Below, piece after piece: positions 13,118 to 39,998 of a DNA stretch of 59,299 bases (position 1 is the first letter of the stretch; every line of letters starts with the position of its first letter). The notes under the pieces were generated by a model. The model worked only from the letters and a program-made list of their open reading frames with translations, ran no database searches and had not been told where the DNA came from. The stretch lies in the IMG/VR virus record IMGVR_UViG_3300046000_006837, positions 1-59,299 of that record; one strand, given 5' to 3'. Source of the stretch: a virus. A program made the position numbers and the translations under genes.

Positions 13118-13242
13118 AGTCAGGTAGCTCAGTTGGGTAGAGCAACCGGTGACAACGGTTCGAGTCCGTTCCATACGAAAGTGTGAGGTGTGTAGGGTAG
13201 CAAGCGGGTGTGACGCAGGTTCGATTCCTGTCCTGACTTCCA
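13118..13242 (+). tRNA. tRNA-like element 1, expanded, with encoded CCA
   Basis: Acceptor AGTCAGG (13118-13124) pairs with CCTGACT (13232-13238), then T and an encoded CCA (13240-13242), the only element here with CCA. The D arm is GCTC...GAGC. AACCG-GTGACAA-CGGTT forms a regular 5-bp/7-nt anticodon arm with U33 and anticodon GAC (Val-type). Before the final T arm (GCAGG-TTCGATT-CCTGT) lies about 54 extra nt, and AACGG-TTCGAGT-CCGTT could be a second T arm overlapping the anticodon arm. Total about 122 nt without CCA. Whether it is charged is unknown. Confidence 0.6.
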
Positions 13243-16542: not shown

Positions 16543-16675
16543 AGCAAGGTGGCGTAATTGGTAGACGCATATATGGTGTAAGTGAATCTAACTCGCGAGG
16601 TAGTTGAGCGGAGAATAAAGCACCAGATAGATGAAGTTACTTATCATCATGCAGGTTCGAATCCTGCCCTTGCTA
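16543..16675 (+). tRNA. tRNA-like element 2, expanded (about 133 nt), no anticodon assigned
   Basis: Acceptor AGCAAGG (16543-16549) pairs with CCTTGCT (16668-16674), then A. The D arm is of the GCGT-AATTGGTAG-ACGC (Leu-like) type. T arm GCAGG-TTCGAAT-CCTGC. The middle offers TGGTG (16574-16578)/CACCA (16621-16625) around 42 nt, and GATGA (16630-16634)/TCATC (16644-16648) just before the T arm. Alternatively TAAGT (16579-16583) with ACTTA (16639-16643) plus GATGA/TCATC gives a pseudoknot. No 7-nt anticodon loop adjoins the D arm. It ends 14 nt before the next ATG. Confidence 0.6.
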
Positions 16676-16879: not shown

Positions 16880-16953
16880 AGCAAGGTAGCGTAACGGTAA
16901 CGCAATGAACAGGGAAGGCTGCATAGATACAGGTTCGAATCCTGTCCTTGCTA
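16880..16953 (+). tRNA. tRNA-like element 3 (74 nt), no valid anticodon loop
   Basis: Acceptor AGCAAGG (16880-16886) with CCTTGCT (16946-16952), D arm GCGT-AACGGTA-ACGC and T arm ACAGG-TTCGAAT-CCTGT are all intact, and the length is normal for a tRNA. However, the anticodon region can only pair as ATG..CAT with CAG-GGAAGG-CTG inside, the loop has no T at position 33, and the stem is interrupted. It ends 15 nt before the next ATG. Confidence 0.6.
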
Positions 16954-30165: not shown

Positions 30166-30196
30166 TTGTTTTTGTGGAAGAACATACTTATATTTG
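30166..30196 (+). promoter_or_regulatory. Promoter of the tRNA-like array
   Basis: TTG (in gtattgttt) lies 20 bp before box TATATTTG (30189-30196). The first tRNA-like element begins at 30207, so the predicted transcription start coincides roughly with its 5' end. Confidence 0.75.
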
Positions 30197-30206
30197 CATT
30201 GTAATT

Positions 30207-30332
30207 AGTCAGATGGCGAAACAAGGGCAGCGCTGATAAAGCTGATTCCTGATGGTAGATGCTAGCGTTGTAAAGGTAGAATGATAAATAGGTTACGCTT
30301 CATTCGTACAGGTTCGAGCCCTGTTCTGACCA
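30207..30332 (+). tRNA. tRNA-like element 4, expanded (126 nt), pseudoknot-capable
   Basis: AGTCAGA (30207-30213) pairs with TCTGACC (30325-30331), first pair A-C mismatched. T arm ACAGG-TTCGAGC-CCTGT. The D-arm 3' part TGGTAGATGC lies 40 nt late, so the D loop holds an insert; that insert contains CAGC-GCTGATAAA-GCTG, an Ile(GAU)-like anticodon hairpin. AGCGT (30264-30268)/ACGCT (30295-30299) forms the next stem; in its loop GAATGA (30279-30284) is complementary to TCATTC (30300-30305) next to the T arm, giving a pseudoknot. The loop begins TTGTAAA, Tyr-like. Confidence 0.6.
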
Positions 30333-30410
30333 CGAAGGCTAGGTAGCTCCTAGATGAACTTAGGGCGGTAACGGGCTAGCCTAAGAGAGATTGAAAAAAA
30401 GCCCGTACAT
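30333..30410 (+). ncRNA. Structured RNA with two exclusive hairpins
   Basis: AGGCTAG (30336-30342) pairs with CTAGCCT (30376-30382). ACGGGCT (30371-30377) pairs with AGCCCGT (30400-30406). The two stems share bases 30376-30377, so they exclude each other, as in an attenuator or switch. No ORF. It lies between two tRNA-like elements. Confidence 0.5.
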
Positions 30411-30489
30411 GGTCAGGTGGGTGTAATGAGGAAAGGTTTCCGAGTCCAGTAAAATGGTTGCTTATCCGGTTCAAGTCCGGCCCTGACTA
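30411..30489 (+). tRNA. tRNA-like element 5, degenerate (79 nt)
   Basis: GGTCAGG (30411-30417) pairs with CCTGACT (30482-30488), one G-U. T arm CCGG-TTCAAGT-CCGG with its outer pair mismatched. The D arm is poorly formed and the centre holds GGAA-AGGT-TTCC and CCA-GTAAAA-TGG instead of an anticodon arm. The most eroded member of the set. Confidence 0.45.
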
Positions 30490-30638
30490 CAAAAAGCCCT
30501 CTGCCTAGCGCTGGGTATGGATCGAAGATAGAGATTACAGATATGCGACTTATACTCGTATATTGGCGTGGAGGCTCTCCGAATCGTAGGTCGGCATAGT
30601 TTGTGCGTTCTAGGGGTATTACAAAAATGCACATTTTT
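30490..30638 (+). ncRNA. Structured gap with anticodon-arm-like hairpin
   Basis: No ORF. ATATGCGA (30541-30548) and TCGTATAT (30556-30563) form 8 bp around the 7-nt loop CTTATAC, which has the layout of an anticodon loop with U33 and UAU. No acceptor or T arm surrounds it, so its identity is open. Confidence 0.4.
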
Positions 30639-30732
30639 AACAAGGTGACGAAAATGGATAAACGTAAGGACAGCGTAGTAGCTTATAAAAAGGTTTCCGA
30701 AAAAGTTGCAGGTTCGAATCCTGTCCTTGTTA
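30639..30732 (+). tRNA. tRNA-like element 6, expanded (94 nt), no anticodon assigned
   Basis: AACAAGG (30639-30645) pairs with CCTTGTT (30725-30731). Short D stem ACG/CGT (30648, 30663). T arm GCAGG-TTCGAAT-CCTGT with a terminal G-U. The 42 nt between D and T arms have no clear 5-bp/7-nt arm. It ends 15 nt before the next ATG. Confidence 0.55.
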
Positions 30733-30747
30733 CAAAAAACAAAAATT

Positions 30748-30993
30748 ATGACAACAGTAGAGAAAATGATTCATATTAAAAAGCTGGTCGAAGAAGTGGA
30801 ATCAGAAGTACGGGAAACGGCTAGACATATAGAAGATATTGATTGGCCGCTTTACAGAATGCTTACAGAAGGATGCGCCGACCGGTTTAAGCACATGTCT
30901 AAAGATCTATCAACAGGATATACAATTGAAAGTTGGGAGAAGCAATTGTGGCAGGCTTATAAATTAATTTGGCCAAATTCAGTAAAACTTTAA
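30748..30993 (+). CDS. Helical hypothetical protein (81 aa)
   Basis: Coiled-coil-like start (KMIHIKKLVEEVESEVRETA), then WPLYRMLTEGCADRFKHM. No family recognised. The ATG lies 15 nt after tRNA-like element 6; the frame continuing upstream through that element is not credible. Confidence 0.7.
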   Translation: MTTVEKMIHIKKLVEEVESEVRETARHIEDIDWPLYRMLTEGCADRFKHMSKDLSTGYTIESWEKQLWQAYKLIWPNSVKL

Positions 30994-31003
30994 ATGATTG
31001 AAA

Positions 31004-31180
31004 ATGAATAGCATACTAATATGTGTATTACTACAATTTGTTTTGTTTACACCATTTTATTTAGTTTGGAGAAACGACTGTAAAGAAATAGGTAAAGAAA
31101 ACTTAGCAGTAAGTTTAACTGAAAGGTTTATTTCTTGTATATTATTTTGCCCAATTTGGATCATTCCATTTATTCGTTAA
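31004..31180 (+). CDS. Small membrane protein (58 aa)
   Basis: Two hydrophobic segments (residues 3-22, about 43-58) with a charged loop WRNDCKEIGKENLAVS between. No family recognised. Confidence 0.65.
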   Translation: MNSILICVLLQFVLFTPFYLVWRNDCKEIGKENLAVSLTERFISCILFCPIWIIPFIR

Positions 31181-31216
31181 ATTCCTTCCTTCCTACAAAT
31201 TTAAAAATAATAGATC

Positions 31217-31333
31217 ATGAAAACATTGTTTGAAATTTATAGAAAACAAGCATCTATTGCTTATAATTACCCATCAGTTAAATTATGCTCAGATGGTGAT
31301 GTAATAAATTATTTGAAAAGTATTAAGTTATAA
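31217..31333 (+). CDS. Very small protein (38 aa)
   Basis: ATG at 31217, stop at 31333: MKTLFEIYRKQASIAYNYPS and more. It has the same A-rich start context as its neighbours, and the stop lies 10 nt before tRNA-like element 7. No family recognised; coding status rests on context only. Confidence 0.5.
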   Translation: MKTLFEIYRKQASIAYNYPSVKLCSDGDVINYLKSIKL

Positions 31334-31343
31334 GAACTAATAT

Positions 31344-31444
31344 AGCAAGGTGGCGGAATTGGTAGACGCTAGCTAAGAATCGACAGGTGTACAACTGTTA
31401 TTGAGCTTATACGATTCATGCAGGTTCGAATCCTGCCTTTGCTA
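31344..31444 (+). tRNA. tRNA-like element 7, expanded (101 nt), pseudoknot-capable
   Basis: AGCAAGG (31344-31350) pairs with CTTTGCT (31437-31443). The Leu-type D arm contains AATTGGTAG. T arm GCAGG-TTCGAAT-CCTGC. AGCT (31371-31374)/AGCT (31404-31407) forms the central stem; GAATCG (31377-31382) in its loop pairs with CGATTC (31412-31417) just before the T arm. ACAG/CTGT (31383-31386, 31395-31398) makes an inner hairpin with loop GTGTACAA. It ends 14 nt before the next ATG. Confidence 0.6.
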
Positions 31445-31458
31445 CTAAAAAATAAAAC

Positions 31459-31611
31459 ATGGATTTATTTATTTTATTATTATCAACTGCTGTTATTCTT
31501 GGTTTATCTAATAAATCAGATTATCAAATTAAAAAGGAAGCAGATAAATTACCTCCTTTTACGAAACAAGAAGCAATAGATTATTACTATAGAGAACTTT
31601 TAGGAAAATAA
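31459..31611 (+). CDS. Very small membrane-start protein (50 aa)
   Basis: MDLFILLLSTAVILGLSNKS gives one hydrophobic segment and is followed by a polar part (KQEAIDYYYRELLGK). Could be a small membrane-anchored protein. It fits exactly between tRNA-like elements 7 and 8. Confidence 0.55.
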   Translation: MDLFILLLSTAVILGLSNKSDYQIKKEADKLPPFTKQEAIDYYYRELLGK

Positions 31612-31618
31612 TAAACTT

Positions 31619-31809
31619 GGCAAGGTGGCGAAATGTTTAAACAACCCCGTTCCAGCCGTGAAAATAATGTGGTTAGAATCCACTACGGGGTTAATGTTTG
31701 AACTTGGTAGACGCTTAAGGGTTGGATAGATGTTGCAACGTAAAACAGAGAAAATAACCTAACAAATCATACAAAATCTATCGTGCAGGTTCGAATCCTG
31801 CCCTTGCTA
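31619..31809 (+). tRNA. tRNA-like element 8, giant (191 nt), with nested insert
   Basis: GGCAAGG (31619-31625) pairs with CCTTGCT (31802-31808). The D loop is split by an insert (31635-31703) closed by GTTTAAAC/GTTTGAAC and AACCCCGT/ACGGGGTT, which itself contains a T-arm-like GTGG-TTAGAAT-CCAC (31669-31683). The D arm resumes as TTGGTAG-ACGC. GGGTT (31719-31723)/AACCT (31756-31760) is the central stem; GATAGAT (31725-31731) in its loop pairs with ATCTATC (31776-31782) before the T arm. It ends 15 nt before an ATG. Confidence 0.6.
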
Positions 31810-31824
31810 CGCAAAAAACATAAG

Positions 31825-31860
31825 ATGGAGTTTCCTTACCTTGTAAAAGATGGGTTTTAG
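31825..31860 (+). CDS. Possible 11-residue ORF between tRNA-like elements
   Basis: An ATG at the usual 15 nt after element 8 opens MEFPYLVKDGF and a TAG, and element 9 starts 11 nt later. It could be a leader peptide or the remnant of a deleted gene. Only the spacing supports it. Confidence 0.25.
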   Translation: MEFPYLVKDGF

Positions 31861-31871
31861 AAATCTTAATT

Positions 31872-31949
31872 AGTCAGGTGGCAGATTGGTATGCAACTCT
31901 CAGTGTAAACAAAGGGGGTGATAAGCAGGTTCGAATCCTGTCCTGACTG
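31872..31949 (+). tRNA. tRNA-like element 9 (78 nt), enlarged anticodon loop
   Basis: AGTCAGG (31872-31878) pairs with CCTGACT (31942-31948), discriminator G. D arm GCA-GATTGGTA-TGC. T arm GCAGG-TTCGAAT-CCTGT. The anticodon stem is ACTCTC/GGGGGT with two G-U pairs and a 12-nt loop AGTGTAAACAAA containing a Tyr-like UGUAAA. The closest in size to a normal tRNA apart from element 3. Confidence 0.6.
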
Positions 31950-31970
31950 CAAACTTTAAAAACAAATAAC

Positions 31971-32225
31971 ATGGTAAACGAAATAACAAAAGTATTTTCT
32001 GACATGTCCAATGAATAATTAGCTCAAGTAATTCAAGAAATGAAAGAAGATGGTCCACAAGGTATTATCCGTATGGAAGGTATTATAAGGGAAAAATGTA
32101 ACATGATTCAAAAGATTGTAGGTGGAGATACTTACGAACGTATAATGATGGTTCAGTTTTCAATTCTTCAAGAAGCTGCGTATAGGTTTACACCAACGAT
32201 GGATGAATTAACACATAATGTATAA
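31971..32225 (+). pseudogene. Small gene with in-frame TAA (84 codons if read through)
   Basis: ATG at 31971 stands 21 nt after element 9. Codon 16 (32016-32018) is TAA, after which the same frame stays open to 32225 with LAQVIQEMKEDGPQGI and more. NE-stop-LAQVIQE fits a CAA or GAA codon changed by one base. Either a recent loss, a read-through site, or re-initiation at the ATG at 32040 (61 aa). Other genes in the window use TAA as a true stop. Confidence 0.6.
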
Positions 32226-32232
32226 ATAATAT

Positions 32233-32341
32233 AGTCAGATGGTGAAATTGGTTCACCTTAGCAGTAGCAGACACTACATAAAAATTGGCCGAATGTCATC
32301 GATACCAAAAGCTAATACAGGTTCGAATCCTGTTCTGACTA
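32233..32341 (+). tRNA. tRNA-like element 10, expanded (109 nt)
   Basis: AGTCAGA (32233-32239) pairs with TCTGACT (32334-32340). D arm GTGA-AATTGGT-TCAC. TTAGC (32258-32262) pairs with GCTAA (32311-32315), one nt before the T arm ACAGG-TTCGAAT-CCTGT. Inside this stem lie GTAG-CAGACA-CTAC and TTGG...CCAA, so the anticodon arm is replaced by a multi-branch loop. It ends 16 nt before the next ATG. Confidence 0.6.
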
Positions 32342-32357
32342 CAAAAAAATTAAGGTC

Positions 32358-32615
32358 ATGAATATTAAACAATTAAAAGAATCAATCGCAAATCTTCCTG
32401 ATGAAATGGAAGTGGTTTTACAAAAAGATAGTGAGGGTAACGGGTATAGTCCACTTAAAGGTGTTGACTCAGATGCTGTTTACATTCCTTATAATACATG
32501 GTCAGGGGATGTTTATTCAATTGGATGGACTTCAGATGAAGCTGATATGTCAGATAAAGAATGGCAGGAAATAAAGTCAAAACCAAGAACTTTGATTTTA
32601 TATCCTGTTAATTAA
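32358..32615 (+). CDS. Conserved phage-type small protein (85 aa)
   Basis: Starts NIKQLKESIANLPDEMEVVL with QKDSEGNGYSPLKGVD, a pattern I recall from many phage genomes with no assigned role. Acidic, soluble. It fits between elements 10 and 11. Confidence 0.8.
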   Translation: MNIKQLKESIANLPDEMEVVLQKDSEGNGYSPLKGVDSDAVYIPYNTWSGDVYSIGWTSDEADMSDKEWQEIKSKPRTLILYPVN

Positions 32616-32624
32616 TATTAACCT

Positions 32625-32726
32625 AGTCAGGTGGCGGAATGGTAGACGCACATCCTAAATACATTCAGATGGTGGAACTGAATTAATTGGGTGTACCACT
32701 TGCAGGTTCGAATCCTGTTCTGGCTA
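32625..32726 (+). tRNA. tRNA-like element 11, expanded (102 nt)
   Basis: AGTCAGG (32625-32631) pairs with TCTGGCT (32719-32725), two G-U. Leu-type D arm with AATGGTAG. CATCC (32651-32655)/GGGTG (32689-32693) forms a 5-bp anticodon stem. Its loop contains the extra hairpin ATTCAG (32663-32668)/CTGAAT (32678-32683), as if a 20-nt hairpin had been inserted in the anticodon loop. It ends 20 nt before the next ATG. Confidence 0.6.
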
Positions 32727-33345: not shown

Positions 33346-33747
33346 ATGAATAAAACACTCTTTTTATTAAGAGGATTGCCAGGTTCAGGTAAAACAACTT
33401 TGGCAAATCAATTAGGCGGATCTCTAGTTGAAGCCGACAGATATTTTATGGTATATGGTGAATATAAGTTTGATGCTGCTAAATTGAAAGAAGCTCATGC
33501 TTGGTGCAGGAATCAGGTTAAAGAGTGGATGGAAACCAATGATAGAGGATTTGATGTTCCCAGGATTGTTGTTTCCAATACCTTTACACAAGAATGGGAA
33601 ATGAAACCTTACTTTGATTTGGCAAAAGAACATGGTTATACGGTCTTTTCATTAATTGTGGAAAATAGACATGGAGGTAAAAATGTTCATGATTGCTCGG
33701 AAGAAACTATAACAAAGATGAGAGAAAGATTTGAAATTTCATTGTGA
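33346..33747 (+). CDS. P-loop polynucleotide-kinase-like protein (133 aa)
   Basis: Walker A GLPGSGKTT (10-18), then EADRYF (D31) and the blocks VSNTFTQEWEMKPY and VENRHGGKNVHDCSEETI, ending MRERFEISL. This order is that of AAA_33 / N4BP2-type kinases related to the 5'-kinase domain of Pnkp. Small and full length for the type. With the metallophosphoesterase (35259) and RNA ligase (38868) it could form an RNA end-healing and sealing set; this is inference. Confidence 0.85.
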   Translation: MNKTLFLLRGLPGSGKTTLANQLGGSLVEADRYFMVYGEYKFDAAKLKEAHAWCRNQVKEWMETNDRGFDVPRIVVSNTFTQEWEMKPYFDLAKEHGYTVFSLIVENRHGGKNVHDCSEETITKMRERFEISL

Positions 33748-35258: not shown

Positions 35259-36023
35259 ATGAAGACAGTAATTATTGGAGACATTCATGGTAGAATATCA
35301 TGGGAGAAGATTGTAGAAAAAGAAAATGATGCAGATAGATTTATATTTGTAGGAGATTACTTTGATACACATGAAGATATAAGAATTATAGTTCAATTAC
35401 ATAATTTTAAACGTTTGATTGACTTTAAGAAGGAGTCTAAAGCAGATGTTATTATGTTAATTGGTAATCATGACTTTCATTACATGCCTTTTGCTAATGA
35501 GACGTATTCAGGACATCAGAGAGGACACCATCATACTATTCAGGAGTTATTGATGGAAAATATAAATGAGTTATCTATGTGTTATAAGATGGATAATTAT
35601 TTATTTAGTCATGCGGGAGTTAGTTCTGAATGGTTAGAGTACTGGGGTGGTCGGATGAAGGTAAATATGAAGAATGATGTTGATGTTATTGTTAATGATT
35701 TATTTATTGGTTCTCCCCGCGCTTTTAAATTTGCCGGATGGGACCCTTATGGAGACAGTGTTGAATCTTCCCCTATATGGATCCGGCCTAAGTCATTACA
35801 GGAATCTAACTATGATACCTTCCGGAAAAAGTACATCCAGGTTGTAGGCCATACACAACAAAAGAAAATAGATATTAAGGGGCAAACTACGGGAGGGAGA
35901 TACTACTACATTGACACTCTAGGTACCAGCCAGGAATATCTAATTATCAAAGATGGTGAAGTTAGCGTAGGTCAATTATCAGATGATTTTACTTCATATC
36001 AATCTTCTTCGAAAGAAATTTAG
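35259..36023 (+). CDS. Calcineurin-like metallophosphoesterase (254 aa)
   Basis: Metal motifs GDIHG (7-11), GDYFD (32-36), GNHD (69-72), HAG (118-120) and a late VVGHTQ are all present. Family members remove phosphates from proteins, nucleotides or RNA ends; the Pnkp repair phosphatase belongs to this fold. Phage homologues of this size are common with unknown substrate. It lies between the kinase and the ligase genes. Confidence 0.9.
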   Translation: MKTVIIGDIHGRISWEKIVEKENDADRFIFVGDYFDTHEDIRIIVQLHNFKRLIDFKKESKADVIMLIGNHDFHYMPFANETYSGHQRGHHHTIQELLMENINELSMCYKMDNYLFSHAGVSSEWLEYWGGRMKVNMKNDVDVIVNDLFIGSPRAFKFAGWDPYGDSVESSPIWIRPKSLQESNYDTFRKKYIQVVGHTQQKKIDIKGQTTGGRYYYIDTLGTSQEYLIIKDGEVSVGQLSDDFTSYQSSSKEI

Positions 36024-38867: not shown

Positions 38868-39998
38868 ATGAAAAATGAAAATAGTGTTTGTTTCGTGTCC
38901 GTGATAAATGATATTCAATCTATTCCGGATGCTGATAACATAGAACTAGCTGTTATAAATGGCTGGCACTGTGTTGTAAAAAAAGGTTCTCACTCAATCG
39001 GAGATTTAGTTATTTGCGCTACTACAGATGCTATGATACCTTTAGAAATTTCAGAGAAATTAGGTATCACCAATTATCTCCGTAACAAAGAAAGAGTTAG
39101 GACAATTAAGCTAAGAGGTGTTTACAGTGAATGTTTGATAATGCCTATTGATTTGATTCCGGAAAATAAAAGGAAAAAATGGGAGGATGTAATGGATGTT
39201 CTTAAAATAGCTAAGTATGAACCTGCGGTTAAAATGATTAGATTAGCCAATGGTAAAAAAAGAAAATACCGTGAAAATCCTAATTTTCCTATTTACTATA
39301 AATTCCCTAATTTTAAAAATGTTCCTAATATTTTTGATGAAAATGATTATGTCGAAATTACTAGGAAAATACATGGAACAAATGCAAGATACGGGATTGT
39401 TAAGAAGAATAAGCTATCTCTGTGGATCAAAATTAAAAAATTCTTTGGTTTTGAGACAGGTTGGGATGAATATGAATTCGTGGTAGGTTCTCATAACGTA
39501 GAAAAAGGATCTGATAGTCAAGGTTTTTATGATACTAATGTTTGGTATGATATTGAAAAAAAATATGATATCAAAAATAAGCTCTGGAACCTTGTTAAGA
39601 AAAATTTTGGTGGTTATACTCGCATGAGCTCTGGTTTTATAATCTACGGAGAAATATATGGAAAAGGAATCCAGAAAAACTATGAGTATGGATTAGATGA
39701 TATACAGCTATGTATTTTCGATATTGAACTAGATAAAAAGTATTTCAATTTGTCCGCAGCTCAATATATGACTGAAGAATATTTAAATCTACCCTACGTT
39801 GAAGTCCTATATAAAGGACTTTATTTAGAGGAAGTAAAAAATTTATTCGTGTTTAATAATTTTATAGACAACACTAAAGTTCCTCATGAAGGTGTTGTTA
39901 TAAAAGCTGTTGATGGAAATAGAGCAAAAGTAGCTAAAGTAATAAACCCAGATTACTTAATTTATAGCGAAAAAAATAATGTTGGGGATTCACATTAA
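38868..39998 (+). CDS. RNA ligase, Rnl5/DRB0094-like (376 aa)
   Basis: Nucleotidyltransferase motif I is TRKIHGTNARYG with catalytic K167. Motif III/IIIa-like FIIYGEIYGKGIQ, motif IV HEGVVIKA and motif V RAKVAK follow in order. An N-terminal domain of about 120 residues (OB-like, containing IPDADNIELAVINGWHCVVK) precedes it, as in the Deinococcus DraRnl group rather than T4 Rnl1 or Rnl2. It seals RNA ends using ATP. It has its own promoter. Confidence 0.92.
   Translation: MKNENSVCFVSVINDIQSIPDADNIELAVINGWHCVVKKGSHSIGDLVICATTDAMIPLEISEKLGITNYLRNKERVRTIKLRGVYSECLIMPIDLIPENKRKKWEDVMDVLKIAKYEPAVKMIRLANGKKRKYRENPNFPIYYKFPNFKNVPNIFDENDYVEITRKIHGTNARYGIVKKNKLSLWIKIKKFFGFETGWDEYEFVVGSHNVEKGSDSQGFYDTNVWYDIEKKYDIKNKLWNLVKKNFGGYTRMSSGFIIYGEIYGKGIQKNYEYGLDDIQLCIFDIELDKKYFNLSAAQYMTEEYLNLPYVEVLYKGLYLEEVKNLFVFNNFIDNTKVPHEGVVIKAVDGNRAKVAKVINPDYLIYSEKNNVGDSH

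Follow-up and report, generated by a model that had tools for sequence, protein, structure and literature searches.

In engineered tRNA scaffolds a foreign folded RNA takes the place of the anticodon arm, and in polycistronic tRNA-guide RNA arrays an RNA is freed by the tRNAs that flank it. Phage T4 carries two stable RNAs, RNA C and RNA D, within its tRNA cluster. In mitochondria, polycistronic transcripts are punctuated by tRNAs, at which RNase P and RNase Z cut (reviewed in PMC4394434). An aptamer-tagged tRNA exemplifies the laboratory constructs (PMC7590224), and phages also encode large RNAs such as GOLLD and ROOL (PMC12286853). Here we analyse eleven tRNA-like elements in the linear IMG/VR virus record IMGVR_UViG_3300046000_006837, whose 59,299 bases (G+C 33.6%) are called the window below. 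Each element has a near-constant shell, made of the acceptor, D and T arms of a tRNA, around a core that can be exchanged. With somewhat better than even confidence, we propose that the shell serves as a tRNA-type processing punctuation and the core as an exchangeable structured cargo. The comparisons reported here point to a large class of phage RNA so far unrecognised, dispersed among the genes of many uncultured phages.

The tRNA-like shell

A scan for the shell recovered all eleven elements of the initial annotation at their given places (74 to 191 nucleotides, nt), all on the + strand; eight of them lie within 30207-32726. The shell is near-constant, with acceptor AGTCAGG/CCTGACT, D arm, T arm, U-1, A73 and C74. 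Both acceptor types that had been distinguished were found in the window, AGTCAGG together with AGTCAGA and GGTCAGG, and AGCAAGG together with GGCAAGG and AACAAGG, so that the division holds if single-change variants are added to it. These single changes mostly preserve pairing, and acceptor and D-stem variants in the related elements also retain it.

The comparative set consists of 500 distinct elements from fetched loci (denoted by L numbers), obtained by scans seeded with exact patterns. T is present at -1 in 82% of them, A73 in 88% and C74 in almost all, while 532 canonical tRNAs from the same contigs have T-1 in 71% and C74 in 98% of cases. Since T-1 and C74 match those of canonical tRNAs on the same contigs, the ends of the elements carry the signals of these phages' tRNAs. 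The identity of the shell is not a search artefact, because three scans seeded with core sequence only, and hence blind to the shell, recovered AGTCAGG on one or both acceptor strands in 25 of 27, 12 of 13 and 5 of 8 usable copies, most of the rest being close variants. By its sequence the shell seems to descend from a Bacteroidota tRNA-Leu: the D arm of a tRNA-Leu (L361) from the Chitinophagaceae metagenome-assembled genome (MAG) that holds contig L144, GCGGAATTGGTAGACGC, is identical to that of the shell, and the 3' half is similar.

Elements of this kind are widespread. A long-middle pattern, in which both shell ends are fixed (about 30 bases) and the middle is longer than class I or class II tRNAs allow, was found in at least 120 viral contigs, and a shorter-middle pattern (elements of 61-81 nt) likewise in at least 120; an AGCAAGG-type pattern gave 9 stretches. 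Chance origin is excluded, because a pattern of about 30 fixed bases matches at least 120 contigs. Element-bearing contigs measure 4 to 322 kb. Sequence or assembly errors were rejected as a cause, given that the same shell and the same cores recur in independent metagenomes. Among 11.3 million genome contigs, the long-middle pattern was met in 3 stretches, all on MAG contigs of 7-8 kb, and the idea of a host chromosomal gene was abandoned on this ground. The genome contig L144 looks like a phage contig, although this is not proven, and encodes a DUF932-like protein, as the window does. Hosts are probably Bacteroidota, because TAnnTTTG boxes lie directly 5' of some elements and the terminase behind one element resembles that of Flavobacterium phages (50.5% identity to the terminase of Flavobacterium psychrophilum phages). 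One box precedes the array of the window (Table 1), and, from its match to the known TAnnTTTG consensus, we take it to be a promoter element; the relative L136 has the same box at the same spacing, and like boxes stand 5' of elements in L094, L112, L083 and L155. No counterpart in a named phage was found by megablast with the window or by blastn with one typical element. We found no prior description of such elements in the open literature; subscription papers were outside the scope, so absence is unproven.

What sets the elements apart from ordinary tRNAs is the lack of an anticodon arm. The initial annotation had proposed a check by ARAGORN and by the Rfam tRNA model (RF00005). The latter aligned the acceptor, D and T arms, and treated the middle as a long insert, at seven places above or near the cut-off; on 16543 the score was carried by the 3' part (16594-16675), and 30207 and 30639 were weak. 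The anticodon arm expected by the family (5-bp stem, 7-nt loop, U33, purine 37) is absent. ARAGORN reported two of the eleven elements, 16880 and 31872, neither with an ordinary reading, one being given a 4-nt anticodon; tRNA finders thus miss such genes or assign false identities to them. On the element-bearing contigs, ARAGORN listed 546 tRNAs with a canonical anticodon arm, of which 2 have AGTCAGG, and such an arm is absent from 92 of its 94 AGTCAGG hits. Elements range from 62 to 191 nt overall, and some, of about 62 nt, have no room for an anticodon arm. Anticodon-like hairpins were seen in 16 of 231 cores, as compared to 11 +/- 2.7 in shuffled sequences, which is no convincing enrichment. 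Group I and group II introns gave no family match at the cut-off or at E<=5 in 12500-33500, and shared exon halves were not found among 238 core families. Decoding tRNAs and tRNA introns were rejected on these grounds, and the earlier statement that the elements are neither is borne out. One might still suppose that the elements function as tRNAs in some unusual kind of decoding, their anticodon or variable arms being large or their introns removable, since the acceptor, D and T arms are complete and a phage RNA ligase is present. This is highly improbable when some elements are too short for any anticodon arm, AGTCAGG almost never occurs alongside one, and neither introns nor common exon halves were detected. 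No tmRNA was reported by ARAGORN or Rfam, and no Rfam match to a type III toxin-antitoxin RNA was obtained in the window array and 11 other sources, toxin neighbours not being part of that search.

Exchange and structure of the cores

The initial annotation had described the middle as different in every copy, and this was confirmed; it had missed that the middle is an exchangeable structured cassette, that the D loop is a second site, and how widely the elements are spread. Evidence from orthologous sites is limited to hand-checked alignments. In L011 and L016, flanks are identical at 978 of 986 and 265 of 265 positions, the elements measure 130 and 80 nt, and both have a private acceptor change, CCTGACG. 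Between L112 and L094, flank identity is about 89-91% over 300 nt, and the shell ends agree at 25 of 25 and 25 of 25 positions, with 21 of 48 in the middle. The pairs L182/L073 and L151/L152 display a core exchange like that of L011/L016, and swap junctions fall inside the shell. Judged from these alignments, the core is an exchangeable cassette, swapped at orthologous sites.

Cores do not track the genes around them. With heuristic calls of open reading frames (ORFs), pairs of elements with the same core had a downstream gene in common in 2 of 49 cases and an upstream gene in 2 of 59, while homologous downstream genes were preceded by different cores in 35 of 38 pairs. A cis-regulatory leader of the next gene was rejected for this reason, and the suggestion that the elements are translation leaders is weakened.

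The D loop is a second insertion site. In L136-L138 the insert and the core of 30207 are carried by two separate elements. The insert in the D loop of 31619 (about 31635-31704), which has a likeness to a mini acceptor/T-arm hairpin, occurs with other cores in L136, L138 and L272.

Cores vary in length between about 10 and more than 100 nt, and the 330 that reach at least 25 nt fall into 238 families. Taken singly, cores have better folds than their dinucleotide-shuffled versions (mean z of -0.74 +/- 0.07, n=231). In the shell-blind scans with families 2 and 1, the core was found within a shell, the exceptions being copies that lie at contig ends and a small number whose acceptors were altered; the core of 32625 was in a shell in eight contexts, two further matches being unrelated sequence. 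In family 2, a hairpin loop pairs with the strand before the T arm, and over 19 sequences this putative pseudoknot has two double-sided changes and no broken pair; its whole-structure covariation score was reached by 0 of 500 shuffles. For the core of 32625 six sequences were compared, and the outer helix P1 shows two double-sided changes. A general test for tail pseudoknots gave a z of -0.87, and no general claim is made from it, its mirror control being invalid since reversal keeps pairing.

Neighbouring RNAs, genes and the accessory island

The elements had been described as filling the gaps between tiny genes. Some intervals between elements lack a protein gene: 30335-30405 and 30490-30638 are occupied by conserved non-coding RNAs, sp1 and sp2 (Table 1), neither with an Rfam match. 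At the sp1 loci, tRNA-like sequence lies mostly on both sides. Past the sp2 motif, the next element starts at 21-23 nt in 12 of the 18 copies, despite unrelated cores and differing acceptors, and in one of these 12 (L383) a canonical tRNA stands in the element's place. At the same position, L391 has the start of another tRNA-like sequence and L315 a terminator-like hairpin. On the 5' side, an element ends 5-7 nt before the RNA in seven copies; in several others a T arm is present there, to which the scan assigned no acceptor. Such a fixed placement is what would be expected if the 5' edge of the element formed the 3' end of its neighbour by RNase P cleavage.

The distances to genes in the window are as first annotated. 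From the 3' end of the element to an ATG they are 14, 15, 15, 14, 16 and 20 nt for six elements, and by reading of the sequence about 14-22 nt for 13118, 31619 and 31872, whose ATGs open very short frames; the 5' end lies 7-13 nt after the previous stop for most. In the related set, again with heuristic ORF calls, element-to-ATG distances peak at 12-20 nt and stop-to-element distances at 5-10 nt. An ORF start follows at 10-30 nt after 166 of 469 elements, and another element after 41.

Table 1. Positions of the tRNA-shell elements and associated features in the window
Feature	Position	Strand	Remarks
tRNA-shell element	13118..13239	+	122 nt; second T-arm-like hairpin inside the core
tRNA-shell element	16543..16675	+	133 nt; core 88% identical in L282
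tRNA-shell element	16880..16953	+	74 nt; odd anticodon arm with 10-nt loop
Promoter box TATATTTG, Bacteroidota-type -7	30189..30196	+	10 nt 5' of the first element of the array
tRNA-shell element	30207..30332	+	126 nt; D-loop insert (about 30221-30252) plus core
sp1, conserved non-coding RNA between two elements	30341..30405	+	78-95% identical, nine loci
tRNA-shell element	30411..30489	+	79 nt; acceptor GGTCAGG
sp2, conserved non-coding RNA bracketed by elements	30494..30638	+	18 distinct copies
tRNA-shell element	30639..30732	+	94 nt; acceptor AACAAGG; decayed copy in L141
tRNA-shell element	31344..31444	+	101 nt; acceptor AGCAAGG; possible core pseudoknot GAATCG/CGATTC
tRNA-shell element	31619..31809	+	191 nt; D-loop insert plus core
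tRNA-shell element	31872..31949	+	78 nt; without ordinary anticodon arm
tRNA-shell element	32233..32341	+	109 nt; core 97% identical in L080/L286
tRNA-shell element	32625..32726	+	102 nt; core family with compensatory changes, loop-tail pseudoknot

The island that holds the array lies between a conserved exonuclease gene (29510) and a conserved kinase (33346) or phosphoesterase (35259) gene. In the relatives L136, L138, L139 and L141 (proteins 75-96% identical), elements and tiny genes differ in number and identity, and in L133 (4690-5420; thyX protein 90% identical) no element is present between the exonuclease and phosphoesterase genes. From this comparison the island is accessory and fast-changing. 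The initial annotation had named ordinary tRNAs at the same loci as a sign of sequence errors here; at the island loci of the relatives no tRNA of 75-90 nt was seen, and these positions have other expanded elements or none. In L141 (4145-4225) lies the decayed copy of 30639, which lacks the acceptor 5' strand and can be read as an open frame. Between elements of the window (about 31825-31860), and likewise in L136 and L141, there is an 11-codon frame, MEFPYLVKDGF, whose surroundings are conserved.

Other genes and RNAs of the window and of related contigs deserve mention. Tandem near-copies of small genes precede elements at 15107-15320/15401-15600 and 15950-16220/16254-16535, and a pair of similar proteins of 246 and 235 amino acids is encoded further upstream (5485-6225/11116-11823). 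A PNK-like kinase, a metallophosphoesterase and an RNA ligase (33346-33747, 35259-36023 and 38868-39998) possibly form an RNA-repair set, which would fit a phage that meets tRNA-cutting defences, any link to the elements being conjectural. In L281 (3428-3662, - strand), an RNase P RNA (RF00010, 49.7 bits, below the cut-off, E 4e-13, full model length) is phage-encoded and lies inside the tRNA array of an element-bearing contig. A GOLLD RNA (262 bits) adjoins tRNAs and elements of this class in L276 (2366-2783), and a match to the 'freshwater-1' RNA (70 bits, cut-off 72) is found near elements, outside any shell, in L273 (3973-4034, - strand).

Proposed mechanism, alternatives and comparison with known systems

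Our proposal is that the acceptor stem, the D arm, the T arm and their contacts are kept for recognition by the tRNA-maturation enzymes of the host. RNase P would cut the 5' end, 3' tRNA trimming and CCA-adding enzymes would act on the other end, and each element would in this way be cut out of a polycistronic phage transcript. Excision would give defined ends to the tiny mRNAs and non-coding RNAs released on either side, and would also yield a stable, tRNA-capped RNA. With a structured core where the anticodon and variable arms would be, and in some cases in the D loop as well, the shell would be a natural tRNA scaffold, between whose resident copies cores are exchanged as cassettes. These cores may act in trans, and if so most likely against factors of the host or of rival phages, which would account for their rapid replacement between near-clonal genomes. 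The parts of this scheme are not equally secure. Processing of a tRNA type is likely on the comparative evidence; that punctuation is a selected function is a fairly good bet; that cores are trans-acting effectors is conceivable, at somewhat less than even odds. To the processing punctuation suggested in the initial annotation, U-1, C74, the fixed distance to sp2 and the tRNA of L383 lend comparative support.

Several observations weigh against this proposal. No single element is essential, because relatives can lack the whole island, as L133 does. The invariance of the acceptor exceeds the known needs of RNase P and RNase Z. On average the cores give a modest structural signal, covariation was computed for two core families with few changes, and for the 32625 family 59 of 500 shuffles did equally well. 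No element was detected at 21-23 nt in 6 of the 18 sp2 copies. Finally, 199 of the 469 elements are followed by neither a close ORF start nor an element, and punctuation is for that reason not the whole story.

If only the shell mattered, the core would be a neutral filler that folds by itself without disturbing it. The placement relative to sp2 is indeed independent of the core, a canonical tRNA can substitute, very short elements exist, and cores are unlinked to neighbouring genes. A filler, however, would be expected to shrink or vanish, whereas core families are met again in unrelated contexts with their sequence, loops included, conserved, and one family keeps its pseudoknot by compensatory changes; we consider this explanation rather unlikely, slightly more so than the next two. 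Shells could instead be recombination sites at the DNA level, that is conserved boundaries for the exchange of small modules (core, D-loop insert or tiny gene) through homologous or site-specific recombination, with the RNA irrelevant or secondary. Cores and D-loop inserts do shuffle independently, island gene content is different in every relative, the shell sequence is conserved beyond pairing alone, and the swap junctions fall inside it. What makes such sites an improbable account is that T-1 and C74, outside the repeat, match the canonical tRNAs of the same contigs, that acceptor and D-stem variants maintain pairing, that cores fold and two families covary, and that the 21-23 nt spacing to sp2 holds for a canonical tRNA too.

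As had been suggested initially, the elements might also be decoys that absorb host nucleases, aminoacyl-tRNA synthetases or toxins directed at tRNAs, with cores varying as the nucleases vary. Defences that cleave tRNAs have been described, as have phage tRNAs that escape them (PMC10264068, PMC11555353, PMC12851939), the window has genes for an RNA ligase, a PNK-like kinase and a metallophosphoesterase, and core turnover is fast. Cores do not mimic anticodon arms, however, and the invariant shell would be the bait, yet only the core varies. Decoys, which overlap with the cargo part of our proposal, are about as unlikely as recombination sites.

Taken furthest, punctuating shells with exchangeable cargo would amount to a natural RNA cassette system, tRNA-shaped scaffolds in phage operons with structured cores swapped in and out, and so to a changing repertoire, in each phage, of trans-acting small RNAs directed at host defences or rival phages and made and protected by host tRNA-maturation enzymes; we advance this tentatively. 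If true, a large phage RNA class has been overlooked, tRNA-shaped but non-decoding, with hundreds of core types exchanged as cassettes, and the role of phage tRNA-like genes becomes testable. Mitochondrial tRNA punctuation would have a bacterial counterpart, the scaffold trick of RNA engineers a natural form, and the many natural structured RNAs could have host defence systems as targets.

Comparison with known systems places the elements as follows. With canonical tRNAs (RF00005), and the Bacteroidota tRNA-Leu in particular, they have in common the three arms, the T loop TTCGAAT, the D-loop GG, U-1 and C74; unlike these, they have no anticodon arm, a near-fixed acceptor AGTCAGG, an exchangeable middle and a length of 62-191 nt. 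Integron attC sites resemble them in having conserved ends and a variable middle and in standing between small gene cassettes, but the elements possess tRNA arms and tRNA processing signals instead of R boxes: the motifs RYYYAAC/GTTRRRY are not at their ends, which are AGTCAGG/CCTGACT, and no integron integrase was seen among the ORFs annotated here, the sole place looked. GOLLD and ROOL, for which the window gave no covariance-model match, are likewise non-coding RNAs of phages that lie beside tRNA arrays and whose function is unknown, but each is a single large RNA without a tRNA shell. RNA C and RNA D of T4 are also small stable phage RNAs of unknown role among tRNAs; they differ in being two fixed RNAs and not a class with exchangeable cores. 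Engineered tRNA scaffolds are laboratory constructs, and a natural class of such kind was not found in the literature searched. Mitochondrial tRNA punctuation has the same layout, with tRNA-like units between genes, short gaps and expected cuts by RNase P and RNase Z; mitochondrial tRNAs decode, however, whereas the elements, whose middle is a swappable cassette, cannot, and cutting is here predicted from comparison. In our analysis the elements are thus neither tRNA, tmRNA, intron, GOLLD/ROOL nor attC, yet would work like mitochondrial punctuation and engineered scaffolds.

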